A model generated the notes under the pieces. That model was given only the letters and a program-made list of their open reading frames with translations. It had not been told where the DNA came from and searched no databases. Both the position numbers and the translations under genes were made by a program. Below are positions 35,623 to 62,400 of a DNA stretch of 64,000 bases, piece after piece. Position 1 is the stretch's first letter. Each line of letters starts with the position of its first letter. The stretch is from Verrucomicrobiota bacterium (GTDB lineage Bacteria; Verrucomicrobiota; Verrucomicrobiia; Opitutales; Opitutaceae). The stretch covers positions 1-64,000 of the forward strand of contig JACRQG010000048.1 in NCBI GenBank assembly GCA_016222805.1, read 5' to 3'.

Positions 35623-35908
35623 GATCTCGCATCGTGGCGGCGAATACGCCGGCGTCGAGGCGCTTGGCGCGAGCACACCGGAATCTCCGAACCAGACAGG
35701 CCTTGGGCGTCGGAATTCCAGGAAGGGACCGGCGGTCTGGCAGCGATGCCTGCTCCCGCCTGTCCCCATCGACCTTCGGCCACTGCCGCGGTCCCCAGCA
35801 ACCGCGCGACAATTCGTTTCCTGGCTTGAGATTCGGCCGAACCCGCAAGCCCACCGGAGGAAGTGGCAGAAAAACGAGGCCCTTCGGTGATGTCGGCGGG
35901 AAATCCCT

Positions 35909-35942
35909 GTAGCAGGAAGGTGACGGGCGGCTTCCGCCACCT
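35909..35942 (+). repeat. GTAG-headed REP-like hairpin
   Basis: GTAGCAGGAAGGTGACGGGCGGCTTCCGCCACCT; AGGTG..GCGG-CTT-CCGC-CACCT stem. Confidence 0.45.
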
Positions 35943-35976
35943 GTTTACCGCTCAACCCTTCGATTCCTCTCCGAAC

Positions 35977-36366
35977 ATGAAAACCACCATCACCGCCCTT
36001 CTCGCCGTAGGCTGCACGCTTCTCGCCCTGCCCGTTCTGCCAGCCTCCGAACCTCGCGCCCGGGCCTATCGCGTCAACGCCATCGAGACTTTGAACAGCC
36101 CAACCATCGAGCCGGGTGCGTCCGAGTTCACCGTCCGCCACATCCTCGGTGAGCCCGCCCGCAAACTCGATGCGAACACCTGGGTTTATGAGCGTTTCCG
36201 CGCCTGGCCGGAACCGCCGGTGGAAGACGACCGCCGTACTCTGGTCATCCAGTTTCACTCTGGCAGGGTGGCCGACCTCCTGCTCGTCAACTCCCGGGCC
36301 GAGGTGGTGATCGCCGCCCGCCTCCAGACCAAGCCCGGCGCGCGGGAACTCGTGGCGGCGAAGTGA
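35977..36366 (+). CDS. Small secreted hypothetical protein
   Basis: 129 aa, MKTTITALLAVGCTLLALPVLPASEP signal peptide; VRHILGEPARKLDANTWVYERF reminiscent of SmpA/BamE-like folds (weak). Confidence 0.6.
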   Translation: MKTTITALLAVGCTLLALPVLPASEPRARAYRVNAIETLNSPTIEPGASEFTVRHILGEPARKLDANTWVYERFRAWPEPPVEDDRRTLVIQFHSGRVADLLLVNSRAEVVIAARLQTKPGARELVAAK

Positions 36367-36431
36367 AGGAGGCGAGGCGCTCGTTCGACTTGTCGGTTGC
36401 CCTCGATGCGGAGCTCGCACGCCAGAGGTCA

Positions 36432-36458
36432 CGCCCTCGCCGCGCCACCCGAGGCTAC
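36432..36458 (-). repeat. GTAG-headed REP-like element
   Basis: Minus strand GTAGCCTCGGGTGGCGCGGCGAGGGCG; CCTCG/CGAGG stem; intergenic. Confidence 0.4.
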
Positions 36459-36582
36459 CGGCCACACCCCGACCCTCGAGCCGATGGCTCAGAGCCGCGG
36501 CCCGTGTCAGCCGCTCTGCGAGAACCCTCTTGTCGCCTGACTTCGGCCTGGCAAGATCCCCTTTCCTGGTAGCGAGCCTTCC

Positions 36583-39500
36583 GTGAATCGCTCCGACTCA
36601 GATGACGCGCTCGTCGCGCGGTTGTTCGAACTTCCCGCCGCTGAACGGGCCGCCTACTGGCAGCGCCTCTGTACCGATCGGCCAGCCCTTCGCGACGCGT
36701 TCCCCGAAGTCACGCGTCAGCTCGACGCTGGCGCCGCCCCGGCCCGCCCGACCTCACCGTTCCCCCCGCCAGCGGCGGTGCGCGCCTTCGAAGCGGCGCT
36801 CACTCCCGGCGATCGCGAGATGGTCGGCACCCAGATTGGCGCATACAAGTTGATCCAGAAGATCGGCGAAGGCGGCTTCGGCACGGTCTGGATGGCGGAT
36901 CAACACGAACCCCTGCGCCGCCGCGTGGCCCTGAAGGTCATCCGGGCCGGACTCGATACCGATGAAGTCATCGCCCGCTTCGAGGTCGAGCGGCAGGCGC
37001 TGGCGCTGATGGATCATCCGAATATCGCCCGCGTGGTCGACGCCGGCGCCACCGCCAGCGGCCGGCCCTACTTTGTCATGGAGTTGGTGCGCGGCGTGCC
37101 CATCACCCGTTACTGCGATGAAAACCGCCTGACCGCCGGCGCCCGGCTGCAGCTCTTCCTCGCCGTTTGCTCGGCCGTGCAGCATGCCCACCAGAAGGGC
37201 ATCATCCATCGCGACCTCAAGCCGTCGAACATCCTCGTGACCCTGCACGACGGCGCGCCGGTGCCCAAGATCATCGACTTCGGCATCGCCAAGGCCACCG
37301 ACAAGCAGCTCACGGAAAAGACCCTCGTCACGCAGTTCCACGCCTTCGTGGGCACGCCGGTCTACACCAGCCCCGAGCAGATGGAGATGAGCGGACTCGA
37401 CGTCGACACCCGGAGTGACATCTACAGCCTCGGAGTCCTCCTCTACGAACTGCTCGCCGGCCGGCCGCCCTTCGATCCGGAGGCGCTCGTCAAAGCCGGA
37501 CTCGATGCCATGCGGCGCACCATCCGCGAAGTGGATCCGCCCCGGCCCTCGCATCGCCTCGGCACGCTGACCGAGACGGATCGCACCTCCGTCGCCCAGC
37601 AGCGTGGCACGGATGCCGCCAAACTTGCGCTGCTCCTGCGCGGCGACGTCGACTGGATCGTGATGCGCTGCCTGGAGAAGGACCGCACCCGCCGGTACGA
37701 CACCGCGGCCGCGCTGGCTGCCGACATCCAGCATCACCTCCGCCACGAACCAATCCTGGCGCGGCCCCCCAGCGAGATCTACCGGGTCATGAAGTTCGTC
37801 CGCCGGCACCGGTTGGGCGTGGCAACTGCGGCGACGATCATCGTCCTGCTCGTCGCCGGGCTGGTCACCGCCTCGACACTCTGGATGCGCGAGCGGGTCG
37901 CCCACCGGCGGGCCGCGGCGGCAGAGGCGTCCGAAACCAGGTTGCGCCAGCAGACCGAGTCGGCCCGCCAGCTCGAGACGAGGCGCGTCGCCCGGACCGC
38001 CCTGGCGTTGGCCGGGGAGTTGCTCGATCGCGGCGAAACCGCCAGCGGTCTCGCCCAACTCGTTTACGCCGCCCGCAAGGACCCGGCCAATCCCACGATT
38101 GCCCCGCGGCTCGCCTCCCTCCTGACCACTCGCAGCTTTCTCACCCCGCATCGCCTGCCCTTGCACCTGCCGGCGCCGGCGGTTTCCATCGCGCATTTGG
38201 AGCAAGGCCGGAAGATCGGCGTGGTCTGCGCCGACGGAACCCTCGGTCTTCTGGAGGCGGCGACGGGCGAATTCAGCGTCATCAGACTGCCTTCGCCGGT
38301 GGCAAGCGACGGCCGTCTGGGTCAAAGTGGACAACGGTTTGCGGTGCTTTGCCGCGACAACGCCGTCCGGGTCGTTGACACCCAAGTCAGGCAGATTGTG
38401 CACGAATTCCGGTTCGGGCAGAAGGCGATCAGCAAGAGCTTCCTTCGGGCCGAGACTGCGACCTTCGCCGTGCGGCTCGAGAACCAGGAGTTGCACCTCT
38501 GTGATGCCTCCACCGGTTGGTCACGGTCGCTTGCCCTCGACGACCGCACGTGGTGGTTACTCAGTCCCGACGGCCGGAGGTTGATCACCTGTCCGCTCCC
38601 CTGGAGGGAAATCAAGATCTGCGATGCAGGGAGTGGCGAGGCACAGGCGACTCTGGCGGTCTCCGACGGAGCGTTTAAGACCGCGGTGATCAGCGCGGAC
38701 AGCCGGCGGCTCGCGAGCCTGCAGGCGAAGGCCCCGACGGGGGAGCTGCAGCTGCAGATTTGGTCCGTCTCGGACGGACGACCGATCTCTGACCCCTCCA
38801 CCTTGCAGGAGAAAGCCAGTACCGAAGTGCCCAGTGTCTTCTTCTCCCCTGACGGCCGGTTTCTGGTTCTCTGGGGCAGGAGAACGCTCGAGATGCGCGA
38901 TGGGGTCACCGGAAGGCTGTTGGCGCCGCCGGTGCCCCACGTTCCGGCGTCTTTCAGCGACTGGACCTTTACGCCAGACCTTCGCTCCCTGCTCACCTGG
39001 ACGCGCGGCACGATTACGATCTGGGACCTGACCGACTTTCGCCAGAAGAGCCAGCTGCCGACGCAGGAAGGTGGCATCCAATACGTCAGGATCAGCGGCG
39101 ACTCGCGCCTCGCGCTCGTCGCGTCCCGGGACGGCCTGGCTCGCGTTTGGGATTTGGAGAGCACCCGGCTCATCGCCGAACTGCCGTCACTGCAACTGGC
39201 GGCACCAGCGTGCGATCTCTCGCCCGATGGCAGCACCATCGTGGTTGGCACCGAGGCGGGCGAGTTGCTGCAACTCCGGATTGGCCGTGCGATCCAACCG
39301 TTGAGTCTGCCCTGGGCTGGCCAACGGCGGCCCTCTCCGTTTCTGGAGGAGCCGCCGGCACGGGTCCTCTCCTTCCGCCATGATCGCGCCACCGTGTTTG
39401 ATCTCGCGACGGGCCTGCCCTCGGGCGGTGGCTTTGCCTACCCGCAACCGGAGAAGCTGCGGCCCCTGGCAAACAACCCCGATATTTCGCGCCGCCAGCG

Positions 39501-40683
39501 GTGGGCGCTGGGGCAGCGATTTGATGGGGAAACGGAGCTTTGGGAAGTGTGGGAACTCACGCCGACTGGCGTGGCGCGGATCAACCCGCTCCGGGAAGTT
39601 CCCTCGCAGCCGCAACGGTACTTCTTCCGCCCGGATGGCGAGCAGGTCGCCTTCGTGTGGGGTTCGAGCCTCCGCGTGTGGAACACCCACACCGGTCTGC
39701 CGGCGGGACCGACCATCCAGTTCCCTGGGCAGGTCTTTTACGGTGTGGACTACGGGGCAAATGCGTTCAGCCCGGACGGGCGGCGAATTGCCGTGGGCGG
39801 CCAGCGCGGAGAGGCGCGGATCTTCGAAATTGCCAGCGGGAAGGAGACCCTGCGCTTGCCGGTCATGCGCGAGTCCACCGTATCGGTGGTGGCTTTCAAT
39901 CCCGACGGCACGCGGATCCTCGTCGCCAACTGGGCAGGGGATGCACAGCTCTTCGACGCGGTCTCTGGCGAAGCGACGAGTCCGCGCCTGGCCCACTCCG
40001 AACGGCCGAGGGGAGCGTTCTCTCCCGACGGAAAGTGGCTGGCGACCACCTGTGGTCGGACGATCTCTCTCTGGGATGGGCACTCCGGCGTCCTGCACGG
40101 GCAGATCGAGGAAACCGAAGGAGTGCGGGGCATCGACTGGAGCGCTGACAGCACACGGCTGGTGCGGACAAGCCGCAGCGGCCCGATTCGGGTCTGGGAT
40201 ATCGGCACCCTGCTGCCAGTGACGGATCTCATGGTTCACCCTGGTGTTCTCGCGGTCGACGCGAACTTCAGCTCGGATGGGAGGTTTGTCGCCGTGGAGA
40301 CTTTCCGCGATCTGCCGGACGCGCCGGGGCAGGTCGGCTTCTTCGATGTCTGGTCGATCCCGCCACCGCTGCCCGCAGGCAAGAGTACGCCCGAGTGGTT
40401 GCTGGATCTGGCCACGCTGTGTGCCGGCAAGAGGATCGACACCGATGGGAAGGTCAGGCCGGTGCCCCCGTTGCTGGAGGGGATCGAGAAAGTCCGCCGC
40501 TCCGTCGCCGCCCTGCCACCCGGGGAGCCCTACGCCGAATGGGGCCGCTGGTTCCTGGAGGATCCGGCCACCCGCTCCATCGCCCCGGGCTTCACGATCA
40601 CTCCCGCCGAAGCGGACATACTCGCCGCCGAACTTGCGCCGCGGGAAGCACCCGCCGCCGTCACGCGCGACGCGAAGCCATGA
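36583..40683 (+). CDS. Serine/threonine protein kinase with C-terminal WD40/beta-propeller
   Basis: IGEGGFGTVWMADQ, RRVALKVIRAG, IIHRDLKPSNILV, KIIDFGIAKATD, GTPVYTSPEQ; TM IVLLVAGLVTASTLW; repeated WD40-like motifs (FSPDGRFLVLW, FSPDGKWLATTC...ISLWDG). GTG start. Confidence 0.95.
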   Translation: MNRSDSDDALVARLFELPAAERAAYWQRLCTDRPALRDAFPEVTRQLDAGAAPARPTSPFPPPAAVRAFEAALTPGDREMVGTQIGAYKLIQKIGEGGFGTVWMADQHEPLRRRVALKVIRAGLDTDEVIARFEVERQALALMDHPNIARVVDAGATASGRPYFVMELVRGVPITRYCDENRLTAGARLQLFLAVCSAVQHAHQKGIIHRDLKPSNILVTLHDGAPVPKIIDFGIAKATDKQLTEKTLVTQFHAFVGTPVYTSPEQMEMSGLDVDTRSDIYSLGVLLYELLAGRPPFDPEALVKAGLDAMRRTIREVDPPRPSHRLGTLTETDRTSVAQQRGTDAAKLALLLRGDVDWIVMRCLEKDRTRRYDTAAALAADIQHHLRHEPILARPPSEIYRVMKFVRRHRLGVATAATIIVLLVAGLVTASTLWMRERVAHRRAAAAEASETRLRQQTESARQLETRRVARTALALAGELLDRGETASGLAQLVYAARKDPANPTIAPRLASLLTTRSFLTPHRLPLHLPAPAVSIAHLEQGRKIGVVCADGTLGLLEAATGEFSVIRLPSPVASDGRLGQSGQRFAVLCRDNAVRVVDTQVRQIVHEFRFGQKAISKSFLRAETATFAVRLENQELHLCDASTGWSRSLALDDRTWWLLSPDGRRLITCPLPWREIKICDAGSGEAQATLAVSDGAFKTAVISADSRRLASLQAKAPTGELQLQIWSVSDGRPISDPSTLQEKASTEVPSVFFSPDGRFLVLWGRRTLEMRDGVTGRLLAPPVPHVPASFSDWTFTPDLRSLLTWTRGTITIWDLTDFRQKSQLPTQEGGIQYVRISGDSRLALVASRDGLARVWDLESTRLIAELPSLQLAAPACDLSPDGSTIVVGTEAGELLQLRIGRAIQPLSLPWAGQRRPSPFLEEPPARVLSFRHDRATVFDLATGLPSGGGFAYPQPEKLRPLANNPDISRRQRWALGQRFDGETELWEVWELTPTGVARINPLREVPSQPQRYFFRPDGEQVAFVWGSSLRVWNTHTGLPAGPTIQFPGQVFYGVDYGANAFSPDGRRIAVGGQRGEARIFEIASGKETLRLPVMRESTVSVVAFNPDGTRILVANWAGDAQLFDAVSGEATSPRLAHSERPRGAFSPDGKWLATTCGRTISLWDGHSGVLHGQIEETEGVRGIDWSADSTRLVRTSRSGPIRVWDIGTLLPVTDLMVHPGVLAVDANFSSDGRFVAVETFRDLPDAPGQVGFFDVWSIPPPLPAGKSTPEWLLDLATLCAGKRIDTDGKVRPVPPLLEGIEKVRRSVAALPPGEPYAEWGRWFLEDPATRSIAPGFTITPAEADILAAELAPREAPAAVTRDAKP

Positions 40684-41429
40684 ATTCGGGTTTCATGGAT
40701 GACTCTCCCCTGCCCCCGGGGAATTTTCCCAGCACCCGCTGGTCGCTGGTGATCAACGCCGGGGCAGATTCGCCGACCCTGGCCGGCGCCGCGCTCGAAG
40801 CCCTCTGCCGACGCTACTGGTATCCACTATATTCCTATGTGCGGCGGACGGGCCGGTCGCATCACGAGGCGCAGGACTGCACCCAGGAGTTCCTGGCGCG
40901 CCTGCTCGCTTCGGATGGACTGTTGCGGGCGCGGCCCGAGCGCGGCCGGTTTCGCACCTTCCTGCTCACCTCGCTGGGTAACTTCCTTATCAACGAATGG
41001 CACCGTGCCCAGGCGGCGAAACGAGGGGGCGGCGCGCCGCAAGTGTCGCTCGACTTGCCGCCGGATGCCGCGGAGCGCTTCGCCGGCGAACCGGTTGACC
41101 CGGGCCTCACCCCCGAGCAGGCCTTCGACCGCGCGTGGGCTTACAGCGTGCTCGACTCCGTGGTCACTGCCCTCGGCGCCGAGTACGAAAAGAGCGGGCG
41201 CGGGCCGCTGTTCGCGGCGTTGCGTCCGCTCGTCTGGGGCGACGAAGGAGAGGCGACCCACGCGATCTTGGCCATGCGGCTCGGAATGAACACCCATGCG
41301 TTTACCGTCGCGCTGCAACGCCTGCGCCGCCGATTGACCGATCGCCTGCGCGAGGAAGTTGCACAAACCGTGGCGGATCCCGCCGAGACCGACGCCGAAT
41401 TGCGCCATCTGCTCGGAGCGGTCCGCTAG
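40680..41429 (+). CDS. ECF-type RNA polymerase sigma factor
   Basis: ATGA overlap with kinase stop. FPSTRWSLVINAGADSPTLAGAALEALCRRYWYPLYSYVRRTGRSHHEAQDCTQEFLARLL...FRTFLLTSLGNFLINEWHRAQAAKRGGG...LGMNTHAFTVALQRLRRRLTDRLREE. Confidence 0.9.
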   Translation: MNSGFMDDSPLPPGNFPSTRWSLVINAGADSPTLAGAALEALCRRYWYPLYSYVRRTGRSHHEAQDCTQEFLARLLASDGLLRARPERGRFRTFLLTSLGNFLINEWHRAQAAKRGGGAPQVSLDLPPDAAERFAGEPVDPGLTPEQAFDRAWAYSVLDSVVTALGAEYEKSGRGPLFAALRPLVWGDEGEATHAILAMRLGMNTHAFTVALQRLRRRLTDRLREEVAQTVADPAETDAELRHLLGAVR

Positions 41430-41731: not shown

Positions 41732-41900
41732 CGTCGCGGCCATTACCATCAACTCGTCTTCGCAAGCGCCGGGGCGGAGCATGACTTTCTGCGCGGTCTG
41801 CACGAAGCCTGCCCCAACACCGGCTGGGCGATCCACGCGCGGTGCATCCGGGGAAACCACTACCACCTCGCTTTGGAGCCGCCCCGGGCCAACCGTCATG
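41732..41900 (+). pseudogene. Remnant of a Y1-type (HUH) REP-associated tyrosine transposase (RAYT/IS200-like)
   Basis: In-frame RRGHYHQLVFASAGAEHDFLRGLHEACPNTGWAIHARCIRGNHYHLALEPPRAN: matches the RAYT pattern 'F...L.E.....GW..HAYC.M.NH(Y/F)HL..E.P.AN'; N-terminus and catalytic-Tyr region missing. Confidence 0.65.
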
Positions 41901-43817
41901 CCTTCCCTGCCCCGCACCATGGCCCGTTTGCCCCTTCCCGTCCGACGCGCCGCTCTCGCCGCGCTCACCGGCTCCGCCCTCCTGTCTTCCGTCGCCGCTC
42001 CCCTATCCGACGAAGCGATTCGCGATCTGCGCCGTGAAACCGCCACCCGGCGCGAGGCCTTCTTCCGCGCCGAAGCCGGCCAGCCGTTCCGGCCCGCCGC
42101 GATCCAGAAGGACTGGAACAACCGCGGCGACTTCACGCGCCACTACAACCAGTCCGTCGTCCTCTTCGCCGCCCGGGCCTTCCGCCTCGGTGAGCAGTTG
42201 CCCGAAGCCAACCGCGCCCTGCGCGAGATGTGCCAGTATCACCTCGATCGCCCGCAGACGCTGCTGGAGATCCACAGTTTTCCCTGGACCCTCAGCGTGC
42301 TGCCGCAGTTCTGCCGCGACTACGGGCCCGCGGGCCAGCGCACCGCCGGCCGGCTCGAACCGGCCACCCACGACCTGATTCTCCGCACGATGTGGACCTG
42401 GGTCCGCGCGCGCTCCAAGCTGGCCGAAGCGGAACGCGAGCAGTCGCGCACCTGGTGGATCACCGACTCGGAAAACCACCATGCCAACCACTTCACCTCC
42501 TGCTGGGCGATCTCGCTCCTGCTCGCCCAGTTGCCCGAATACCGCTCCCAGCCCTACGAAGACGGCCACACCGCCGTGGAGCATGCCACCGCCTGGACGG
42601 CATATCTGATCGACTACCTCGGCGAGCGCGGCCGCCACGGCATGACGATCGAAATCGACTCCCCCTCCTACGCCATCACCACCCTCAGCGCCGCCTATCG
42701 CATCCACGGGATGACGGAGGATCCCAGACTGCGCCGGCTGGCCGCCGACTATGTCGCGCTCTTCTGGGCCCTTTGGGCCGAACACCAGATCGACGGTGTG
42801 GGCGGCGGGGCCAAGACCCGCTGCTACCCGGACTCCGCCCGGCGCGGCACCGACTTCCTGCGGCGCGCCGCCTGGTACACCCTTGGCCTCGGCGAACCCC
42901 GTTTCGTGCACGCTTCGATGCTGCCACTTCTCGACGCGGAACTTGCCCTGCCCGACCTGCTCTTCGACCTCGCCCACGACCAGGCCGGCCGCGGCTCCTA
43001 CGAAATTCGCCAGCGGCGCGTCGGGCTGGCCGAACCGGGTTTCAGCCAGCCGCACCACTACCGGATGCGGCCCGACGTCCCCGGCCTGCTGCGCTACGGT
43101 TACGTCACCCCCGACTTCATCGTCGGGTCCTTCCTGCATGAGGCGCGCCCGGAAGCAGACTGGGCGGCCATCAGTGGGCAGAACCGCTGGTGCGGTGCGA
43201 TTTTCCGCGGCGACGCCGACGCCCGGGTGTACCCCGCGGCGGTCAATTCCGCGGGTGAATCGGTGTACAACGCATTCTGGTCGGTGCAATCGCGCGGCTC
43301 GCTGATCGCGCAGGCGCTGGCGACGGGCCGACGAGGCGACGAGTGGCGCGTGTACTTCTCGCGCGCCGGCCTCACCGAGCCGCAACGCGAAGGTCGCTGG
43401 GTCTTCACGACCGCACCCGGAGCCTACGTCGCGGTGCACATCGCCCGCGGCGAGTTCGCCTTCGTCACGGAACCGCGCGAGAAGTTCGGCCGCTGGCTGC
43501 GCTGCGCCGACGCCACCACGCCGGTAATCCTCGAGGTCGCCCCGCGCGCGACGTTCCCCGACGAAGCCGCGTTCCGGCGCGCCGTCCAGGCGCTTCCCGT
43601 CGCGTGGGCGGACGCCGCGTTCACCTACCAGGGGCTCGGCGGCGAGAAGCTGACGCTTCTCACCGATGGCAGCCGCCTGCCGCTTATCAACGGGCGCCCC
43701 GTCGATCTGGCCCCGCCCCGCATCTACGACAGCCCCTTCGTGCAGTCCGTCGGCGACGGCGTAAAGGTGCTCCTGCGCAAGGGCGCTCGCGAACACCCGC
43801 TCGACTTCAGCCAGTAG
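41898..43817 (+). CDS. Secreted protein of an uncharacterised, putatively polysaccharide-active family (paralogue of 46208..48805)
   Basis: Alternative start 41919. Signal-like region; WWITDSENHHANH, IEIDSPSYAITTLS, IDGVGGGAKTR, RYGYVTPDFIVGSF motifs shared with 46208..48805. Confidence 0.75.
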   Translation: MPSLPRTMARLPLPVRRAALAALTGSALLSSVAAPLSDEAIRDLRRETATRREAFFRAEAGQPFRPAAIQKDWNNRGDFTRHYNQSVVLFAARAFRLGEQLPEANRALREMCQYHLDRPQTLLEIHSFPWTLSVLPQFCRDYGPAGQRTAGRLEPATHDLILRTMWTWVRARSKLAEAEREQSRTWWITDSENHHANHFTSCWAISLLLAQLPEYRSQPYEDGHTAVEHATAWTAYLIDYLGERGRHGMTIEIDSPSYAITTLSAAYRIHGMTEDPRLRRLAADYVALFWALWAEHQIDGVGGGAKTRCYPDSARRGTDFLRRAAWYTLGLGEPRFVHASMLPLLDAELALPDLLFDLAHDQAGRGSYEIRQRRVGLAEPGFSQPHHYRMRPDVPGLLRYGYVTPDFIVGSFLHEARPEADWAAISGQNRWCGAIFRGDADARVYPAAVNSAGESVYNAFWSVQSRGSLIAQALATGRRGDEWRVYFSRAGLTEPQREGRWVFTTAPGAYVAVHIARGEFAFVTEPREKFGRWLRCADATTPVILEVAPRATFPDEAAFRRAVQALPVAWADAAFTYQGLGGEKLTLLTDGSRLPLINGRPVDLAPPRIYDSPFVQSVGDGVKVLLRKGAREHPLDFSQ

Positions 43818-43847
43818 CGGCGCGGGAAAAGCACCTTCAATCGTTCT

Positions 43848-43899
43848 GTAGCCTCGCCTGAGCCGAAGGCGAAAGCGTGGCCGCTCGCGGACCACGTTG
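43848..43899 (+). repeat. REP-like element, copy A (inverted relative to copy B at 48837..48887)
   Basis: GTAGCCTCGCCTGAGCCGAAGGCGAAAGCGTGGCCGCTCGCGGACCACGTTG; hairpins TCGCCT/AGGCGA and CGTGG/CCACG. Confidence 0.75.
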
Positions 43900-44047
43900 T
43901 TTGCGGTGGGCTTTGAGTCGGTCTTCTCGACCACCTGCCTCCACCGCAGGATTGCCTCGCTCCGTGCGGCCTCGATAATTCCCGCGCTCCCGAATTCGCC
44001 GGGCGCCAGGTCCCGTTCCGGCCCCCGGTGAAGACTCACCCCACCCC

Positions 44048-46204
44048 ATGAAAGCGCTCCCCACCCTCCCTGTCGCGCCCACCGCTGTCCCGCTCCATCG
44101 CAGCCTCGTGCCGTGGCTCGCCTGCGCCTTCGCCGCCCTGCCGGCGCAGGTGTCTCCCCCCGCCCGGCCCGATCCCGAGGACACCATCGTCCGGCTGTCC
44201 GAGTTCGAGGTGTCGACGCAGCGCGACACGACCTACCGGGCCGCCAGCGCCGTGTCGTCCAACCGCGCGAATACTCCCCTCTTCGAGACCCCCCAATCCA
44301 TCACGGTGCTGACCGAGGCGTTCCTGCGCGACATCGAGGCGCTTTCGGTCACGGAGGCGCTGGAGTTCATTCCAGGCGTGACGCCCGGCGATCCGGGCAC
44401 CGGCGGGGCCGACACCATCCAGACCCGCGGGCAGGCGATTCCCGAAACCCTGCTCGACAACATGCCCGACCTGAACACCAACGTGCGCCCCGATCCCGCC
44501 CTGATCGAACGGGTCGAGTTCATCAAGGGTTCGTCGTCGTCGCTCTACGGCAGCTCCTGGCCCGGGGGTGTGGTCAACTCGATCACCAAGCGTCCGAAGG
44601 CGAAGCCCGCCTACGAATTCGCCCTGCAGTTCGGCAGCTACGACCTGCGGCGCGAGACGATCGATCTCACGGGTCCCCTCGCCCAGAACCGATCGCTGCT
44701 GTACCGCCTCGTGCTGGCCTACGAGGAGAGCGGCAGCTACCGCGACCGGGTGAACTCCGACCGGTGGACCGCGTTGCCGGCGCTTTCCTACGCGTTCGCC
44801 TCGGGGGCGAAGATCACGGTCTCCCACGAGTACCTCCATTCGCGCCAGACAGCGGATCCTTTCCTGCCGATCTTCACCGGCGACACCCAGGTGCGTCTGC
44901 CGCGCGAGCGCTTCCTCGGCCTGCCCGACCAGGACTACGACATCATCAAACGCGCCACGCGGGTATTCTTCGATCACCGGCTCAACGCCCACTGGTCCCT
45001 CCGCCTGGGGTACGCCTACTCCACCATCATCGCCGACAAGATGTCGGGCCAGCTCACGGGCCAGGCCAGCGCCACGACGCGGACGCAGCCCCGCCGGATC
45101 AACCGCCAGTACATCACCACCGGCACCCAGGTGCTCCAGGGCGACGTCCTCGGGCGGTTCGTCACCGGTCCCTTCGCCCACCGCACACTGATCGGCTTCG
45201 ACGTGCGCAAACAACAGAATGACCTCGCCACCTACTTCCAGAACATCACCCCCGCGACGGTGAACGTCGACAACCCCAGCTACACCTACGCGCTCAACGG
45301 GGCGGTCATCACCAATATTCACAACGTCGCCTTCTCCGAATCGTACGGGGCCTATGTCCAGAACCAGGCGTCGGTCTGGCAGGAGAAACTTCAATTGGTT
45401 GTCGGGGCGCGCCTGGACGGTTTGTCGCAGGACACCCTCACCCTCACGCAGCCGCGGCGCACGTCCTACACTCCGCCCAACGTGATCACCCCCCGCTATG
45501 CGCTGCTGTTCCACCCCACGAAAGACACCATGCTCTACGCGACGTACGGGGAGTCGTTCCGGCCGGACGTCTCGGGTCGCCCGATCTTCGGCACGACGGC
45601 GAAGCTCGATCCCACCACCGGCGTGCTGCACGAGATCGGCGGCAAGTCGCGGTTCTTCGACGGCCGGCTGGCCTTCGAAGTCGACCTCTTCGAACTCACG
45701 CGGGAAGGCATCGTGGTGGCCGACCCCGATCATACGGGATTCGTGCTGCAATCCGGCAAGGAGCGCTCGCGGGGGTATTCCGCGTCGTTCCACACCGATC
45801 CCCTGCCCGGGCTGACGTTTTTCGGCGGCTACGCCTACACCGACGGAAAGATTGTGAGCGACAGCAACCGGACGCTGATCGGGCGTCGCCTCCAGGGCAC
45901 GCCCAAGCACAGTTTCAACGCCTTCGCCAAATACCGCGTGCGCAGCGGCCCGCTCCAGGGGCTGGGCTGCGGTGCCGGCGTGCGTTGGGTCGATGATCGC
46001 CCGGGCGCCACCAACACGACGCTGACCTTCCCGGGCTACACCGTGGTCAACGCCCAGGTGAACTACGCGTGGCGTCGCTACTCGTTCAACGTCGCCGTGA
46101 ACAACCTCTTCGACGAGTACTATTGGGCGAATGTCGCCGCCCTCAACGGCAACCGCGCCGGCCTCCCGCTCTCCTATCGCGCCTCCGTACGGGCGAAGTT
46201 CTAG
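44048..46204 (+). CDS. TonB-dependent (siderophore-receptor-type) outer membrane receptor
   Basis: LSEFEVSTQRDTTYRAASAVSSNRANTPLFETPQSITVLTEAFLRD...IQTRGQAIPETLLDNMPD...VEFIKGSSSSLYGSSWPGGVVNSITKRP...; C-terminal NNLFDEYYW...RASVRAKF. Confidence 0.95.
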   Translation: MKALPTLPVAPTAVPLHRSLVPWLACAFAALPAQVSPPARPDPEDTIVRLSEFEVSTQRDTTYRAASAVSSNRANTPLFETPQSITVLTEAFLRDIEALSVTEALEFIPGVTPGDPGTGGADTIQTRGQAIPETLLDNMPDLNTNVRPDPALIERVEFIKGSSSSLYGSSWPGGVVNSITKRPKAKPAYEFALQFGSYDLRRETIDLTGPLAQNRSLLYRLVLAYEESGSYRDRVNSDRWTALPALSYAFASGAKITVSHEYLHSRQTADPFLPIFTGDTQVRLPRERFLGLPDQDYDIIKRATRVFFDHRLNAHWSLRLGYAYSTIIADKMSGQLTGQASATTRTQPRRINRQYITTGTQVLQGDVLGRFVTGPFAHRTLIGFDVRKQQNDLATYFQNITPATVNVDNPSYTYALNGAVITNIHNVAFSESYGAYVQNQASVWQEKLQLVVGARLDGLSQDTLTLTQPRRTSYTPPNVITPRYALLFHPTKDTMLYATYGESFRPDVSGRPIFGTTAKLDPTTGVLHEIGGKSRFFDGRLAFEVDLFELTREGIVVADPDHTGFVLQSGKERSRGYSASFHTDPLPGLTFFGGYAYTDGKIVSDSNRTLIGRRLQGTPKHSFNAFAKYRVRSGPLQGLGCGAGVRWVDDRPGATNTTLTFPGYTVVNAQVNYAWRRYSFNVAVNNLFDEYYWANVAALNGNRAGLPLSYRASVRAKF

Positions 46205-46207
46205 GAC

Positions 46208-48805
46208 GTGAAACCGCCTTCTCCTCCCTTCACCCGCACGGTCGCCGCACTCTTCGCTGCTGCCCTCGCCGTCGCGGAGGCACAGCCCGTGGAGACCACC
46301 CGGGGCGATGCCTGGTTCGATGCCGAACTCTCGTTTCGCCTCGAAGGAACGCCCCCACGCCCCGCACGCGGCCGACCCGCCGCCGCGGTGCAGCCCGACT
46401 ACGTCCGGAAGGTGCAGGGAGATTCCAGCGTCCGCTGTCCCCTGGAGGGCCGCCCGGCGGTCGAGCTCGTGCCGGCCTACCGTGAAGCCTGGACCATGGG
46501 TCGCGACTGGCGCCTGCGCTTCGAACTCGCGGCGTCCGATCTCCCGGCCGGCGCCACCTGTGCCCTCGTCCTGATCGACGCGGGCGGGCGCCAGGCGGAA
46601 TCTCGCCCGCTCGGTCTCGCCGCCGCCACCCCGTGGCGGCACGTCGAGTTCGCCCTCGCCGAGCTCTCTGCGCCCGCGGGTTTCGACTTCGCGCGGATCG
46701 TCCGCGCCCGCCTGGTCTTTCGGCCGGCCCCCGCCACGGTGTGGCTCGATGACGTGCGCTTTGTCGCCGCGGCGGGAGACGCCGAGATCGCTCTCACCGA
46801 TCTGCGCACGGCTGATCGCATCGCCCGCGAGGCCGACACACGGATGGCACGGATCCGTGAGTTGTTCACCTCGAAGATCTCCTCCCAGCCGGGGACCAAC
46901 CTGTCGCGGCTCTTCGCCAACCTGTGGCTGGATCGCGACGTGGCGGCGACGAACCGCGAGTTGCTGGCGATCTACACCTCCACCGATCCCAAGGTACGGG
47001 CGGACTACGGGCTCGAATACACTTGGCATCTCGCCGCCACGCCGATGCTCACCCGGTTCTATTTCCACTTTGGCCGGCAGGGCCGGCGGGCGCCCGGACG
47101 CCTCAGTCCGGAGGTCGAGCAGGCCATCCTCCGCCTGCTGTGGGAACGGACCGAACTGAAGAACGATCTGCACGCCGCGCACCAGAGCACCTGGAACCTC
47201 ACCGGCAGCGAGAACCACGATCTCAACGCCAAGGTCGGAAACGTGCTGGTCTCCCAGATCTTTCGCCACGAGCCGGACTACGCCAGCCGCGTGCTGCCCA
47301 ACCGCGGCACCGGGCCGGGCTCCGGTTACTGGTTTCACAAGACCACCGACACGGGCCGCTATCATGGCCCCGAGGGTCGCGCCCAGCCGACGCTCACGGG
47401 CGCCTTGCGCGCGGCGGATCATTACCAGGCCTGGACGGCCTTCATGAAGGAATACCTCCGCGAACGGGCCCGGCGCGGCTTCTTCCTCGAAAAGAGCTCG
47501 CCGGGCTACATGAAGTACACGACCTCGTTCCTTCAGGATCTGTACGACTTCGCCGAGGATTCCGAACTGCGCACGCTGACCGGCATGTTCCTCGACCTCC
47601 TCTGGGCCGAGTGGGCGCAGGATCAGATCCGCGGCATGCGCGGCGGCGCCAAGACCCGCGAGGGCGGCGTGCTCGATTTCCAGCAGGATGCGATGTACGG
47701 GATGGCCACCCTTCTCTTCGGCGGACCGGCGCCCGCCCACCCGTCCCTTACCAGCTACCTGCTTTCCGACTACCGCCCACCGGACATCATCTGGGAACTG
47801 GCGCTGAACCGGACCGCCGCCGGAGCCTACGCCTACATCTCGCACGCCCCGGGCGAGGAGCGTCCCGAACTGCCGCGACCTCCCGGCATGGAACGCACCC
47901 TGCTCTGCAACCCGGACTCCCGCCTCAAGCGCTACAGCTGGGTCACGCCCGAGTTCATCCTCGGCACGCGCATGGACCACCCGCTCGCGGTGCACTCCCA
48001 CCTCAGCTCCGGCAGTTGCTGGGAGGGCATCATTTTCCCGACCTCCACCCGGGCGATGATCTTCCCGCGGGCCATCGAGGTGACCAAGAACGGGACGTGG
48101 CGGATGGAGGCCGAGGGGACCACCCGCAGCTTCCAATCCGGCCCGGTCCTGATCACCCAGCAGAGCCGCGGCGGAGTGACCGTGATCAATCCCGACTGGT
48201 TTCCCCGCGCGGTGCAGGACTCGAAGCCCTTTGGCGTCTACCTCGGCACCGGGCATGATCGCCTCGAGGAGGAGCAGGGCTGGATCTTCGTCGAGGCGGG
48301 CGACGCCTTCCTTGGGGTCCGTCCGGTGAGCGGCCGGTATCAGGTTTCGGTGGACGCCGGGAGCGGCAACAAGGACTGGGTCGACTACGAAGGTGCGGCG
48401 ACCCTCGAAGAGCCGCTCGACCCGATGCCCTATGAGTGGAGTCCCGACCGCACCCTGGTGCGACTCAAGGACCGCCATGCGCCCATCATCTTCGAGGCGG
48501 GCCGCCGGGTGGATGAGGGCACCCTGGCCGCCTTCAAGCAGCGCCTCCTCGGCAATCGGCTCACGCTGACCAAGATCGTCGTGCCCGGCCACTACGTGCT
48601 CACCTACGTGAGCGGAGGGCACACCTATACCTTCAATGCCGCCAACACGGAGATCCCGCGGCTCGACGGCCAGCCCATCGACTACTTCCCCGCCCGGACC
48701 TTCGACAGCCCGCACCTATCCTCCGATTACGGTTCCGGCCTCGTGACGATTTCCGCCGGCCGGCGGCGCCTGATCCTGGACTTCCCGCAGGCAACCCGCC
48801 GGTGA
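46208..48805 (+). CDS. Secreted protein: N-terminal CBM-like domain + uncharacterised putative polysaccharide-active domain
   Basis: GTG start 3 nt after the TonB receptor stop. WNLTGSENHDLN, LEKSSPGYMKYTTS, IRGMRGGAKTREGG, RYSWVTPEFILGTRM; paralogous to 41898..43817. Confidence 0.8.
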   Translation: MKPPSPPFTRTVAALFAAALAVAEAQPVETTRGDAWFDAELSFRLEGTPPRPARGRPAAAVQPDYVRKVQGDSSVRCPLEGRPAVELVPAYREAWTMGRDWRLRFELAASDLPAGATCALVLIDAGGRQAESRPLGLAAATPWRHVEFALAELSAPAGFDFARIVRARLVFRPAPATVWLDDVRFVAAAGDAEIALTDLRTADRIAREADTRMARIRELFTSKISSQPGTNLSRLFANLWLDRDVAATNRELLAIYTSTDPKVRADYGLEYTWHLAATPMLTRFYFHFGRQGRRAPGRLSPEVEQAILRLLWERTELKNDLHAAHQSTWNLTGSENHDLNAKVGNVLVSQIFRHEPDYASRVLPNRGTGPGSGYWFHKTTDTGRYHGPEGRAQPTLTGALRAADHYQAWTAFMKEYLRERARRGFFLEKSSPGYMKYTTSFLQDLYDFAEDSELRTLTGMFLDLLWAEWAQDQIRGMRGGAKTREGGVLDFQQDAMYGMATLLFGGPAPAHPSLTSYLLSDYRPPDIIWELALNRTAAGAYAYISHAPGEERPELPRPPGMERTLLCNPDSRLKRYSWVTPEFILGTRMDHPLAVHSHLSSGSCWEGIIFPTSTRAMIFPRAIEVTKNGTWRMEAEGTTRSFQSGPVLITQQSRGGVTVINPDWFPRAVQDSKPFGVYLGTGHDRLEEEQGWIFVEAGDAFLGVRPVSGRYQVSVDAGSGNKDWVDYEGAATLEEPLDPMPYEWSPDRTLVRLKDRHAPIIFEAGRRVDEGTLAAFKQRLLGNRLTLTKIVVPGHYVLTYVSGGHTYTFNAANTEIPRLDGQPIDYFPARTFDSPHLSSDYGSGLVTISAGRRRLILDFPQATRR

Positions 48806-56161: not shown

Positions 56162-59100
56162 TCAGGGAGTGGCCGGGCTCGCGATCATCAGCCGCACCGG
56201 CCCCAGCAGGCCCGAGGGCAGCAGCGGCGTGTCGGCCTTGAAGGGATTGCGGGTCGTCCAGGAGCGGCGCTGCTCCACCGGCAGCGCGACATCGCCGATC
56301 AGGCGATTGGGCCAGAGGTTTGCCACCGTGATCTCGAGCTCGTTGGCGCCTGGTCGCAGCGCCGGGGAAAGATCGACCCGCCAGGGCGCGCACCACCGGA
56401 CCCCGAGATCGCGGCCGTTGAGTTGCACCCGCGCCATCACCTCGACCCGGCCGAGGTCCAGCCAGAGCGCCGCCGCGCCATCCGCGACCTCAAAGCGGGT
56501 GCGGTACGTCGCCAGGCCGGAGTAGTGCCGCACGCGCGGATCCTCGAGGCGACTCCAGTCTTCCAAACGGGTCCACGCCAGGGGCTGATCCGGGCCGCCG
56601 GCCTGCACCTCGAACTGCACCTGCCAGGGTCCGGGCAGCGTCTGCCGCTCCTGAAAAGCAGCGAAGTTGCCTTCCCCAGCGGGGACGGTGCGGCCGGGCT
56701 CCGGCGGGGCGAACACCACGAAGCAGGACTGCTCCGGTTCGAAACGCAGCGGCACCGTCGTGCGCCCGCCCTTCTCGGAAAACACGGGCAGCGGCCGCCG
56801 CGCGCCCGTGTCCGGATCCCACAGTTCCGGCGCCCGCCCGGCGACCCGGAACACCGCGTGGACGTCCACGACCCTCGCTTCGCGATTTGCCACGAAATAG
56901 ACCTCCGTCTCCCCCACCTGCCGATGGGTGTAGCGCAGCGGACCATTGGACTCGAAGTCCGGCACCACGCCCTGGCGTGCCAGCTCCGCGGCCGCGATCG
57001 CGTAGTCGCCGTACTGCACGGGCTCCCGACCCCGCTCCACCGGCACCGTGGCATCCCACACGATCCGCCCGCGGCCGAGTTCGCGCGCCTTCACGTTCCC
57101 CCCATCGCACGGCCCCCAGATCTCCTCGGCCAGGCGCTGCACCTCCGCGTCACACTGCGGGTAACCCTGCAACCCCGGAGACTTGGCCGGCCGCGGCCCA
57201 ATCACCGTCGCGCCTGCGCGCACCAGTTCCCCGACCTTGCGCAACAGGGCCGGGGTCATGGTGTCTCGCTCCGGCAGCACCAACACCCGGTAACTCATGC
57301 CTCCGGCGAGCAGGAGGCGGCCGTCGCGCACCTGGGCCTGCTCGAGCAGGGTTTCCGGGGCACAGCCGTCGAAGTTGTAGCCAAGGCGATCGGGCCACAC
57401 GCCGCGCGTCGCCGACGGGGGTGGTCGGAAGATCAGCGGCGCGCCCTCCGCGGCGAGGTAGAGAATGTCCGCCACCGGCCGCCCCTGCCGCAGGAGCCAC
57501 TGGCAGCGCGCGAGGTAGCGGTGGTACGCCGGCACGAACGGCCACCAGGTTTGCGTGTGCTCCCAATGCACCCCGTACGATCCCATCGTCATGCCGGGAC
57601 GACGTCCGGGCCAGGGCTGGTGTTGGAATCGGTGGAACGCGATGCGGTTCACCCCGGCGGCAAACGCCCAGTCGCCGAGGGTCTTCATGTTGCCGGGGAA
57701 GGCACGCCAGTCCTCTCCCGGGTTGGAGGTGAACGCCTCCGCGGCCACCACCTCGCGTCCGAGGGTGTGCGCGATCGAGGCCGCCTCGATCACGCTGTAA
57801 GCCGTGTCGAATCCCTTCCACCAGAACTCGCACATCGGCACGTCCGCCACCGCCCCCAGGCTCAGATCGGCGCCAGGATTCATGTCGTAGGGTTCGCTCG
57901 AGAACTTGAGCCCGTGCCGATGGGCGAAATCTCGCAGCCGTCCGACGTGGTGCGCCAGCACCAGCTCCTGCGCGGTCTGGCGGAGATCCCAGAGGAACCG
58001 TTCCGACGTCTCGACACCGCCCACGATCCGTCCGGTCATCGCGGGCAACCACGGCAGGGGATCGTACCCACGGCGCCGCTGGAACTCCGATCGAAAGTTC
58101 TCGGACCAGTTTTGCGCGCTCATCTCCCAGCTGTCGAAATGCAGCGTGGTCAGCCCGCGACCGGGCCGGCGGGACGGGCCGATCTCCTGGATCAACTTCC
58201 CCGCGAACTGCTCGAGGTGCGCATCGAGCGCGGCCGGCTCAAACTTGTCGCTCTCGAAGCCGAGGCCGGGGTTCGGCGCGGGCCGTGTGGTCTGCCCCGT
58301 CGCAGTGCGCCCGAACCGCAGGATTGTCCACTCCCCCGCCGGCACCTCCCATTCGAGACGTCCGTCAGCGCTGAGCCGCGCCGTGAGGTCGACGATGCCG
58401 TCGCGGGCAATGACCTCTCCGGACGGAACCTCCTCATGCCGCGCGGGCGCTGGCAGGAAGGGCTTCACCCGCGGCTGCGACGAATACGGCGCGCGCAGAT
58501 ACAGCGCCTTTTCGTCGACGTCGGCGAGGCGGTGGCCGCCCAATGGCTTCCGAAACGCCAGCACGGCGACGTCGCGGTAGTACTCCTTCCAGAGCCGCGC
58601 GAGTTCCGGCGTGAGCGTGCGCTCCCCGAAGAAGGGTGTCCGCGGCGCCGGACGCGGCAATGGACCCGCGAACCGCTGCGGTCCGGTGACTGTCGTCTCG
58701 CTCGCCACCAGGTGCTGCATCGACTGCTCCGGTTTCACCCAGGGACCGCCGGTGCCGCACCAACCCGGCCCGGTGCCGAGGGCGATTTCAATCCCGAGTC
58801 GGTCCGCCTCGCGCACGGCATGCCCGAAGAGTTCACGCCAGGCCGGGCTCATGAACTCCACGGGCCCGCGCGGGATGCCGATGTTCACTTCGAGGAAGAT
58901 CGCCCCGCCGATGCCGGCCGCGCGCATCGCCTCCAGGTCGGCGGTGAGGCCCTCGCGCGTGAGATTGCCGTCCATGAAGTACCAATAGACCCACGGTCGC
59001 GCGGAATCGGGGGGAGTGGCGAAGCCATCGGCCAACTCCGTCGCAGCCGGGGCGGCGACCGCCAGCGAGGCCATCAGCCCGCCCAGGAGCGGGCCGACCA

Positions 59101-59230
59101 GGAACCGCAGGGAGTGCCGACGCAGGCAGCTGCCTCTGCGGCCACCTCCCTCCGTGCTTTTCCGAAGTTCGGGTACAACGGTTGCCGGGGTTTCGTCCCC
59201 GATCTCGAGTCGAGTCGCGCGGGTTTTCAT
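56162..59230 (-). CDS. GH106-like (alpha-L-rhamnosidase-type) glycosyl hydrolase
   Basis: GFATPPDSARPWVYWYFMDGNLTREGLTADLEAMRAAGIGGAIFLEVNIGIPRGPVEFMSPAWRELFGHAVREADRLGIEIALGTGPGWCGTGGPWV; C-terminal GH2-type sugar-binding domain (LDLGRVEVMARVQLNGRDLGVRWCAPWRVDLS). Confidence 0.9.
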   Translation of the reverse strand: MKTRATRLEIGDETPATVVPELRKSTEGGGRRGSCLRRHSLRFLVGPLLGGLMASLAVAAPAATELADGFATPPDSARPWVYWYFMDGNLTREGLTADLEAMRAAGIGGAIFLEVNIGIPRGPVEFMSPAWRELFGHAVREADRLGIEIALGTGPGWCGTGGPWVKPEQSMQHLVASETTVTGPQRFAGPLPRPAPRTPFFGERTLTPELARLWKEYYRDVAVLAFRKPLGGHRLADVDEKALYLRAPYSSQPRVKPFLPAPARHEEVPSGEVIARDGIVDLTARLSADGRLEWEVPAGEWTILRFGRTATGQTTRPAPNPGLGFESDKFEPAALDAHLEQFAGKLIQEIGPSRRPGRGLTTLHFDSWEMSAQNWSENFRSEFQRRRGYDPLPWLPAMTGRIVGGVETSERFLWDLRQTAQELVLAHHVGRLRDFAHRHGLKFSSEPYDMNPGADLSLGAVADVPMCEFWWKGFDTAYSVIEAASIAHTLGREVVAAEAFTSNPGEDWRAFPGNMKTLGDWAFAAGVNRIAFHRFQHQPWPGRRPGMTMGSYGVHWEHTQTWWPFVPAYHRYLARCQWLLRQGRPVADILYLAAEGAPLIFRPPPSATRGVWPDRLGYNFDGCAPETLLEQAQVRDGRLLLAGGMSYRVLVLPERDTMTPALLRKVGELVRAGATVIGPRPAKSPGLQGYPQCDAEVQRLAEEIWGPCDGGNVKARELGRGRIVWDATVPVERGREPVQYGDYAIAAAELARQGVVPDFESNGPLRYTHRQVGETEVYFVANREARVVDVHAVFRVAGRAPELWDPDTGARRPLPVFSEKGGRTTVPLRFEPEQSCFVVFAPPEPGRTVPAGEGNFAAFQERQTLPGPWQVQFEVQAGGPDQPLAWTRLEDWSRLEDPRVRHYSGLATYRTRFEVADGAAALWLDLGRVEVMARVQLNGRDLGVRWCAPWRVDLSPALRPGANELEITVANLWPNRLIGDVALPVEQRRSWTTRNPFKADTPLLPSGLLGPVRLMIASPATP

Positions 59231-59231
59231 G

Positions 59232-62144
59232 TCAAGGAGCGGCCAGTTGGATCGTCACCGGCCCAAGCAAGCCGGAGGAGGCCAGCGGCGAGTCCTTCTG
59301 GTAATGCCGGGCCGTGGTGAAGGTGTAGCGGCCGGAGGGCCGCGGGCCGCCCTGCCGGAACCACTCCGGCCATTCGAGCAGGGTTTCGAAGTCCTTCCAC
59401 TTGCCATCGAGCGGCAGGTGTTCGTCGCCGATCAGGCGGTTGACCCAAAGGTTCACCACGTCGATCTCGAGTTGGTTTCGCCCGCGCCGGGCCGCCGCGG
59501 TGATGTCGACGCGGTACGGCGGTTTCCATGCGACGCCACAGTCCCGCCCATTGACACGCACGCGCGCCATGACCTCGACCGTCCCGAGGTCGAGGAAGGT
59601 CCCCGGCGACAGGTCCGCGAGCTCGAACTCCCGGGAGTACGTCGCCGTGCCGCTGAAGAACCGGATGCCGGGCTCCGCGTGCTGGCTCCAGTCGGCAAGT
59701 CGCGCGAAGGACACCGTCTCCTTCGGCCCGCCCCAGCGCGGATCGAACCTCACGGCCCAGGGTCCTTCCAGCGCCTGCAGCGCCCGATACTCCGGCCAGT
59801 TTCGCCCCGCGGCCACCGCTGCCGGGCCCACGTCCCCCGCGCGAAACACCACGAACCAACTCTGCATGGGCGCAAAACGCAGCGGCACCGCGGTCCGGCC
59901 CGCGCGTACTTCGAACGCCGGGAGCTCGCGCCTCGCCCCCGTTTCCGGATCCCAGAGCTCCGGACGCTTTCCGCTAACCCGAAACGTGCAGACGACGTCG
60001 CGCCCGCGATTCTCCGGGTGGGAAACGAAGTAGACCTCGGTGCCCCCGACGCGGCGGTGCACATAGGAAAGGCCCTCCCCCTCGAAGTCCGGCGCGAGCC
60101 CGTCCTGCGTGAAGACCTCGGCCATGGTCCGCCCGGAGATCACGCGACCGCCATCCCACAGCTCGGCTGCGATCTTCTCCAGCTCGGCGTCGGCGCGCGG
60201 ATGGTCGGTCAGGCCCGGCGTGCCGCGCGGTCGCGGGCCGCCCACGACCCGCGCTCCCGCGGCGACCAGGTCGCGGATCCGGCGGGCCAAGGGCAGCGTC
60301 ATCCGCTCCGCGTCGGGCAGGCGCAGGTAGCGGTAACTCATGCCCGACGGCAGCACCACCCGCCCGTCCTTCACCGTCATCTTCGCCACCAACTCCGCCG
60401 CGCACAGGTCGAAATCGTACCCGGAAGGGAGCGCGAAGGTCATGTCGTTCACATTGAGCGGTGCGCCCTCGCCGAACCACACGCAGACGTCGGCAACCGG
60501 TTCACCCTGCTGCAGCAGGTGCTGGCAGCGCGCGAGGTAGTCCATCCACGGCCCGCTGTAGCTCCACCAGGTATTGTGTCGTTGGAGGTGTTCGCCCCAT
60601 TTGCGGTGCGTGAGACCCGGCACCATCGCGTCGTAGGCCTGGTGCGCCGAGAGGTGGAAGATCACGCGGTTGAGCCCCTCGCAAAACTTCTGATCGCCCA
60701 TTGCCTTCAGGAGGAACGGGTGGTCGCGCCAGCCGCGATCAGACGTGAACGCCTCGGCCCCGATGATTGACCGCCCGTAGGTGTGCGCCGCCGACGCCAT
60801 GACCTTCGTCGAGCGCTCGTATCCGGGTTTCAACCTCGGGAAGCGTTCGTCGCCGGTGGCCCAAAACTCGCTGATCGGGAAGTCGCCGACCCCGGCGTAA
60901 GCGAGGTTGTCGATGCAGAGGTGGCCGTAGGCTTCGGTGGAGAACTTGATCCCAAAGGGCCGCGCCCGGTCGCGCAAGCGTCCGGCATAATGCGCGAGGT
61001 GCAGCTCGCTCACCGTGGCCCGCACGTCCCAGAGAAATCGCTCCGACAACTCCGGGTTGCCCACGACGCGCCCGGCCAACACCGGGAGCCACCGCCGCAG
61101 GTCGTACCCGCGGCGCGCCCGGAATTCCGCCGGAAAGGTGGCGGTCCAGTTCTGTCCTCCCGCCTCCCAACTGTCCACGTGCACGTACTTCAGGGTCCGG
61201 CCCGCCGCCGCGCCGGCGGCGGTGAAGATCGGCTTCAAGAACGCATCGAAGTGCGCGTCGATGCCGGCGGTCGCGAGACGATCACACTCCAGGCCCACCG
61301 CGGCGCCCGGGCTTGGTCGCGTCATCTTGTAGTTGGAGGCGTGCCCGCAGCGCAGGATGAGCCAGCGTCCGGGCGGCGCGTCCCAGGCGAGGCGCCCGTC
61401 CGCGTCCAGCCGGCCGGTCAGATCGATCACCTGCTCGAGCGGCACCACCGCCCCGGCCGGCGGCAGGGTCTTCACCCCGCGCGGCAACCGCCAGTCGGCA
61501 CCGTCCTTGAGATTGAGCTCCGGGAGACGATAGGCCCGGGCCGCGGCGGCCGCCGGAGCGGGAATCGCGAGCACCGCCACGTCGCGGTACGAGTCGATCG
61601 TCTCCACCTGCTGCCGCACCCTTTCCGGCAGGGCCGCCCCCGGCCGCAGCCAGGCCGAGAGGTTCTTCGGTACGACCGGCCGGGGCACGACGAGGCTTAC
61701 CGGGCGCCCGCCGTCGACTTCGGTTTCGCTCCAGTAGAGCTTCTGCATCGAGAGTTCGGGCGTGATGTGGGGCCCGCCGCTCCCGTAGCCGAAGTCCACG
61801 GAGAGATCGAATTCCAGGCCGAGGCGGTCGCACTCGCGAATCGCCCATTGCATGGCGTCGTGCCACTGCGGGCTGAGCGCCACCATCGGACCCTCCGGCG
61901 CCCACCACGGCCCACTCACCTCCATCCAGAGCACACCGCCGATGCCCACCCGCTGCATCGCCTCCAGGTCGGCGGTGATGCCCGCCTTGGTGATGTTGCC
62001 GTTGATCCAGAACCAGAACACCCAGGGCCGGGCCGAGGCGGGAGGGGCCGCGAAACCCCCGGCGAGCGTTGCAGCATCCCCCGCGGAAAGCGGGGCCACC
62101 AGCAGGCTGAACACGAAGGCGACCAAGCGGAGGTGAGGTTTCAT
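59232..62144 (-). CDS. GH106-like glycosyl hydrolase (tandem paralogue)
   Basis: GFAAPPASARPWVFWFWINGNITKAGITADLEAMQRVGIGGVLWMEVSGPWWAPEGPMVALSPQWHDAMQWAIRECDRLGLEFDLSVDFGYGSGGPHITPE; C-terminal FLDLGTVEVMARVRVNGRDCGVAWKPPYRVDIT. Confidence 0.92.
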   Translation of the reverse strand: MKPHLRLVAFVFSLLVAPLSAGDAATLAGGFAAPPASARPWVFWFWINGNITKAGITADLEAMQRVGIGGVLWMEVSGPWWAPEGPMVALSPQWHDAMQWAIRECDRLGLEFDLSVDFGYGSGGPHITPELSMQKLYWSETEVDGGRPVSLVVPRPVVPKNLSAWLRPGAALPERVRQQVETIDSYRDVAVLAIPAPAAAAARAYRLPELNLKDGADWRLPRGVKTLPPAGAVVPLEQVIDLTGRLDADGRLAWDAPPGRWLILRCGHASNYKMTRPSPGAAVGLECDRLATAGIDAHFDAFLKPIFTAAGAAAGRTLKYVHVDSWEAGGQNWTATFPAEFRARRGYDLRRWLPVLAGRVVGNPELSERFLWDVRATVSELHLAHYAGRLRDRARPFGIKFSTEAYGHLCIDNLAYAGVGDFPISEFWATGDERFPRLKPGYERSTKVMASAAHTYGRSIIGAEAFTSDRGWRDHPFLLKAMGDQKFCEGLNRVIFHLSAHQAYDAMVPGLTHRKWGEHLQRHNTWWSYSGPWMDYLARCQHLLQQGEPVADVCVWFGEGAPLNVNDMTFALPSGYDFDLCAAELVAKMTVKDGRVVLPSGMSYRYLRLPDAERMTLPLARRIRDLVAAGARVVGGPRPRGTPGLTDHPRADAELEKIAAELWDGGRVISGRTMAEVFTQDGLAPDFEGEGLSYVHRRVGGTEVYFVSHPENRGRDVVCTFRVSGKRPELWDPETGARRELPAFEVRAGRTAVPLRFAPMQSWFVVFRAGDVGPAAVAAGRNWPEYRALQALEGPWAVRFDPRWGGPKETVSFARLADWSQHAEPGIRFFSGTATYSREFELADLSPGTFLDLGTVEVMARVRVNGRDCGVAWKPPYRVDITAAARRGRNQLEIDVVNLWVNRLIGDEHLPLDGKWKDFETLLEWPEWFRQGGPRPSGRYTFTTARHYQKDSPLASSGLLGPVTIQLAAP

Positions 62145-62400
62145 GACGTCAGTCTGGTTGAAAAGGTGGGCGGGGAGCCCTCGCCCCGCGTCGCTAGGGC
62201 AAGCCGTCAGGGGCGTCCGCGAAACCCGCGCTTCCCGGCGGCCTGCCAAGAGTCCGGCGGCGGTGGATCCCGTGGCCACGGCGTGGAGGCACCCCGTCCA
62301 ACGAAATGTGGGCGAAACCTGGCCGCGGGCCTGACGGTCGGTGCAGATGACAGGGCATGAGGAGATTGGCTGTCTAGCGGCAGCAGGGTGACGTGGACGA

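Follow-up and report, generated by a model that had tools for sequence, protein, structure and literature searches.

Within the window, by which we mean the whole stretch of 64,000 nucleotides that was analysed, two related genes, here called Q1 and Q2, flank a gene for a TonB-dependent outer-membrane receptor, and two alpha-L-rhamnosidase genes lie further downstream. The features on which the analysis rests, with the domain limits of Q1 and Q2, are the following:

41898..43817, + strand: Q1, an open reading frame of 639 aa from the ATG at 41898 and a paralogue of Q2 (helical toroid at residues ~38-360, beta domain at ~398-639)
44048..46204, + strand: TonB-dependent outer-membrane receptor between Q1 and Q2 (Pfam, NCBIfam)
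46208..48805, + strand: Q2, an open reading frame of 865 aa with a GTG start (beta-rich N-terminal domain at residues ~75-195, toroid at ~201-533, beta domain at ~574-858)
56162..62279, - strand: two GH106 alpha-L-rhamnosidases, ~8-13 kb downstream of Q1/Q2 (PF17132, 2.9e-189 and 6e-181)

The receptor matches PF00593 (1.4e-48), the Plug domain PF07715 (6e-19) and TIGR01783 (2.4e-82), and its predicted identity is firm. Q2 starts 3 nt past the receptor stop, and the open reading frames lie where an earlier, sequence-only reading of this DNA had placed them; the Q1 frame has an alternative in-frame ATG upstream at 41781. Both N-termini are signal-peptide-like by inspection, and the two proteins are probably secreted. 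Directly upstream of the pair lie a protein kinase with WD40 propeller repeats (36583-40683, +) and, adjoining it, a sigma-70 region-2 protein (40395-41429, +), together a possible regulator.

Q1 and Q2 had been taken for paralogues of an apparently uncharacterised family, on the strength of motifs shared in the same order. BLASTP finds the two proteins 27% identical across 609 aa (E=6e-46), with those motifs in register, and the common motifs therefore reflect real homology. The lack of an assignable family holds in the libraries that were compared: Q1 and Q2 have no significant match in Pfam, NCBIfam or PDB sequences, and neither do five relatives; a 17-sequence family profile found no PDB sequence at E<=10, and literature searches brought up no title or abstract that describes the family. 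The N-terminal extension of Q2, previously called CBM-like, is indeed beta-rich according to AlphaFold, but Pfam gives no significant match for it, which leaves the label plausible and unproven and any named CBM unconfirmed; a sub-threshold match to CBM30 (E=0.001) appeared only in the Christiangramia relative of Q2.

In whole-genome searches, 49 of 373 genomes from the same order and 51 of 338 from the phylum contained matches; the superfamily is also represented by one member of the Bacteroidota, Christiangramia. Relatives include the protein of Christiangramia crocea (39% in the best segment) and two tandem copies in the verrucomicrobial Pelagicoccus mobilis (46%), and a scan of viral contigs yielded no further ones. 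The source genome holds four family members, two in the window and two on a different contig; one source-genome member (C46:101025-102950) likewise comes immediately after a gene encoding a TonB Plug domain (L039). In a tree of 67 members, Q1 groups with a 55%-identical protein of a congeneric genome (support 100/100), and Q2 falls in a different, strongly supported clade that also contains the proteins from Christiangramia and Pelagicoccus, which means that Q1 and Q2 did not arise by a recent tandem duplication. The signature GDTENHW marks a third large clade, whose proteins (~650 aa; L018, L029, L035 and others) are common in the order and have no Pfam or NCBIfam model. Two unusual architectures were also seen: a distant superfamily match that shares an open frame with an FGE-sulfatase (sulfatase-modifying factor) domain (L080:912-3386, genome G467), and a member to which, by inspection, an SGNH-hydrolase-like N-terminal domain is fused in frame (L015:1244-3898, genome G290).

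Conservation was counted across 67 diverse members at <85% identity and is reported in Q1 numbering. The motif positions that emerged, with their Q2 counterparts, are these:

42471..42479, + strand: Q1 E192-N193-H194 of SENH (conservation; aligned to Hepar_II_III by hhalign)
42651..42671, + strand: Q1 E252..Y258 of E..SP.Y (conservation; aligned with E277/Y282 of the heparinase-like profile)
42819..42821, + strand: Q1 R308 of GGAKTR (67/67 members)
47210..47218, + strand: Q2 E335-N336-H337 of SENH (conservation)
47489..47509, + strand: Q2 E428..Y434 of E..SP.Y (conservation)
47657..47659, + strand: Q2 R484, the invariant Arg of GGAKTR (conservation)

Each of the three motifs first picked out by eye survives in part. 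In SENH the E-N-H core is kept (E192 96%, N193 99%, H194 94%) but the Ser is not; SP(S/G)Y reduces to its Tyr (Y258, 97%), joined by a Glu six residues before it (E252, 100%); and in GGAKTR the final Arg (R308, 100%) is retained with two glycines, but the Lys is not conserved. That Lys had been proposed as a catalytic candidate and gives way to the Arg, whereas the N-H pair, proposed in the same terms, stands and aligns with the N-H of heparinase-like proteins. D275 (90%) and Q464 (93%) are likewise conserved, and apart from H194 no His column of the family alignment is conserved above 35%. The invariant Tyr and Glu of E..SP.Y had been overlooked, as had the absence of an HxH from the beta domain.

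The family profile was compared by hhalign with profiles of Hepar_II_III_C (PF07940) and PL8 reference proteins taken from the same phylum. The match to the Hepar_II_III profile had a probability of 84%, an E-value of 7.5e-6 and a score of 57.6, against null scores of at most 20.4 for full column shuffles (150 runs), at most 30.9 for 15-column block shuffles (150 runs) and 17.7 for the reversed profile; none of 132 unrelated neighbour proteins, each entered as a single sequence, exceeded 26.7. Three subclades each matched the same Hepar_II_III region independently. The alignment pairs the family's E-N-H with the heparinase-like N-H and its E..SP.Y with their E.SP.Y, in which Y282 is conserved at 100% and E277 at 93%. 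The family resembles the Hepar_II_III superfamily (PF07940 plus toroid; PL12, PL15, PL17, PL21, PL35, PL39) in having a helical toroid followed by a beta domain, and an Asn(-His) followed by the Tyr of E..SP.Y in the same order and at a comparable distance, ~54-60 residues being typical of the superfamily. The family's own N-to-Y spacing, mostly 58-66, is slightly longer than the 53-63 computed from the residue numbers of characterised PL8/12/17/23/35/39/40 enzymes (PMC12088678, PMC12915356).

The resemblance does not extend beyond the toroid. Compared with Hepar_II_III_C, the beta domain shows no similarity at profile level (probability 1.5%), neither PF07940 nor a related Pfam model was matched significantly, and the family carries an extra invariant Arg. 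The beta-domain HxH, conserved at 100%/93% in 27 heparinase-like sequences, has no counterpart in the family, whose sole conserved His column is H194. In toroid lyases with the kind of Asn/Tyr site described here (PL12/15/17/21/35/39/40), the beta-domain His serves as base or metal ligand. For PL35 it has been identified as the base (PMC12088678), and in PL40 it acts as base with Mn2+ (PMC12915356). The superfamily must therefore operate in another way, or by a different chemistry. The PL40 ulvan lyase Uly1040 illustrates the difference: it has N245-W246 (the W sometimes H) with Y305 60 residues later, and its beta-domain His485/His487 act with Mn2+, plus Asp358 (PMC12915356). Our family shares the toroid and beta-sheet fold, the N-H and the Y, but lacks a conserved equivalent of H485/H487, as judged from the published PL40 residues, and its profile found no PDB sequence at E<=10. 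Loss of the His/metal site would also fit a non-catalytic or glycan-binding protein that merely retains an ancestral lyase fold; with N, H, E, Y and R retained at 94-100% in very divergent members, we regard this as highly improbable. The Q1/Q2 family lies outside the public libraries compared (Pfam, NCBIfam and PDB sequences) and is best described as a remote, His-less branch of the heparinase-type toroid lyases.

Structure prediction agrees with this placement. AlphaFold models were built from five aligned sequences, and their mean pLDDT stayed at 62-66 (Q1 66, Q2 62) because the alignment held only those five, the viral-contig scan having added none; all three motif loops fell below 50. Both models show helices in the N-terminal half and beta structure in the C-terminal half, with the additional beta-rich N-terminal domain in Q2. 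The helical barrel plus beta domain like that of heparinases, anticipated from the sequence, is thus borne out at moderate model confidence as a helical toroid with an antiparallel beta domain, by AlphaFold with Foldseek and by the profile-profile match of the toroid. In Foldseek searches of the PDB with Q1, the first eight ranks were, in order, DSE1, PL8, PL15, PL12, PL21, PL21, PL21 and PL8 (E 1e-5 to 2e-3), all of them uronate lyases or an epimerase; the TM-scores were low (0.2-0.36), as expected because the model is weak. The best match of Q2 was also dermatan sulfate epimerase 1, with weak matches below it.

That PL8 enzymes took ranks 2 and 8 raises the question of a PL8-type rather than a Hepar_II_III-type lyase, with a tetrad of N/H/Y/R/E in which Tyr is both base and acid. 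As in PL8 (chondroitin AC, hyaluronate and xanthan lyases), a toroid is combined with a beta domain and Asn, Tyr and Arg follow one another in similar order; the invariant Arg lies 50 residues past the Tyr, and such a site has no need of a beta-domain His. Against this, the PL8 profile match is non-significant (probability 1.8%, E 0.03, compared with 84% for Hepar_II_III), on which ground PL8 membership was rejected, and the family has no conserved counterpart of the His that PL8 enzymes carry 8-9 residues before the Tyr. We consider this alternative quite unlikely.

Gene neighbourhoods offer a view of the possible substrate. The tandem GH106 pair (56162-62279, -) is followed by a TonB receptor (62401-63768, -), and two further GH106 genes lie on the same contig just past the window (C40:68087 and C40:78496). 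The window also encodes two carbohydrate-related proteins, a DUF1961 protein (28344-30884, -) and a DUF2961 protein, possibly GH172 (34591-36465, -). Across 26 loci from 18 genomes, a GH106 gene lay within 15 kb of a family member in six (expected 1.03, P=3e-4); since CAZyme genes cluster generally, this association is not specific. The Christiangramia member sits amid GH88/105, GH28 and GH43 genes (Pfam), accompanied by PL22-, GH2- and GH115-like genes recognised by inspection, and the Pelagicoccus pair adjoins a homologue of PcRGLX-type rhamnogalacturonan lyases, with DUF6807 and an SASA esterase also present. One verrucomicrobial member adjoins GH106 and sulfatases. At another locus, five consecutive sulfatase-like genes, one of them Pfam-confirmed, stand between two family members (L137:7969-16201, genome G548). 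These surroundings suggest a rhamnose-uronate glycan as substrate, for example RG-I, ulvan or an arabinogalactan cap. Unsaturated uronyl products are usually handled by GH88/105 (PF07470); it is absent from several genomes that carry family members, and an obligatory partnership was accordingly rejected.

The same neighbourhoods bear on two further explanations. A uronyl C5-epimerase like dermatan sulfate epimerase would abstract the proton in the same way and re-protonate instead of eliminating, and DSE1 (6hzn) is the top Foldseek match of both models (E 1.1e-5 and 1.7e-5). DSE1, however, is an animal enzyme with ~10% identity to the family, whose context is bacterial and degradative, with TonB import, GH106, GH28, GH43 and sulfatases. 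DSE also relies on a beta-domain His, which the family lacks. An epimerase therefore appears very unlikely. A glycoside hydrolase built on a helical toroid would draw its catalytic acid/base from E192, E252 and D275, three highly conserved acids; the absence of GH88/105 from several member genomes is compatible with this, and GH146 beta-L-arabinofuranosidases do appear at Foldseek ranks 11-12. Those matches are weak (E 0.04), whereas the top eight are lyases or an epimerase, and the E/Y spacing and the N-H fit the lyase superfamily, where the equivalent Glu is itself conserved (E277, 93%). We judge a glycoside hydrolase unlikely.

The interpretation that we favour, and hold to be fairly probable from sequence comparison and predicted structure, is that Q1 and Q2 are polysaccharide lyases of an unnamed superfamily that would act by beta-elimination on a glycan containing uronic acid and probably rich in rhamnose. 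In favour of a lyase are the eight best Foldseek matches, the profile match of the toroid to Hepar_II_III, the pairing of N-H and Tyr, their spacing and the degradative neighbourhoods. Counting against it are the missing beta-domain His, the lack of beta-domain similarity and the genomes without GH88/105, together with the weak models (pLDDT 66 and 62), the low TM-scores, motif loops below 50 and the unspecific GH106 association. Under the lyase interpretation, Q1 and Q2 would act outside the cell or in the periplasm, and the receptor at 44048..46204 would import the released oligosaccharides. In the predicted site, N193/H194 (N336/H337 in Q2) may neutralise the uronate carboxylate, Y258 (Y434 in Q2) may shuttle the proton as base and/or acid, and R308 (R484 in Q2) with E252 (E428 in Q2) may position or activate that Tyr.

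We also put forward, more tentatively and with slightly less than even confidence, a wider proposal: that a large, unnamed toroid-lyase superfamily has lost the heparinase-type metal/His site and carries out uronate beta-elimination by N-H/Tyr/Arg alone, and that it comprises one or more new PL families for rhamnose-uronate glycans, widespread in Verrucomicrobiota and present in Bacteroidota. The missing beta-domain His raises the question of whether a heparinase-type toroid lyase can work with Tyr alone. Among the degraders of complex acidic polysaccharides Verrucomicrobiota are prominent, and a large share of their enzymes has yet to be assigned; a family with matches in ~13-15% of the sampled genomes of the order and phylum, and with no Pfam or NCBIfam model, would close a sizeable annotation gap.
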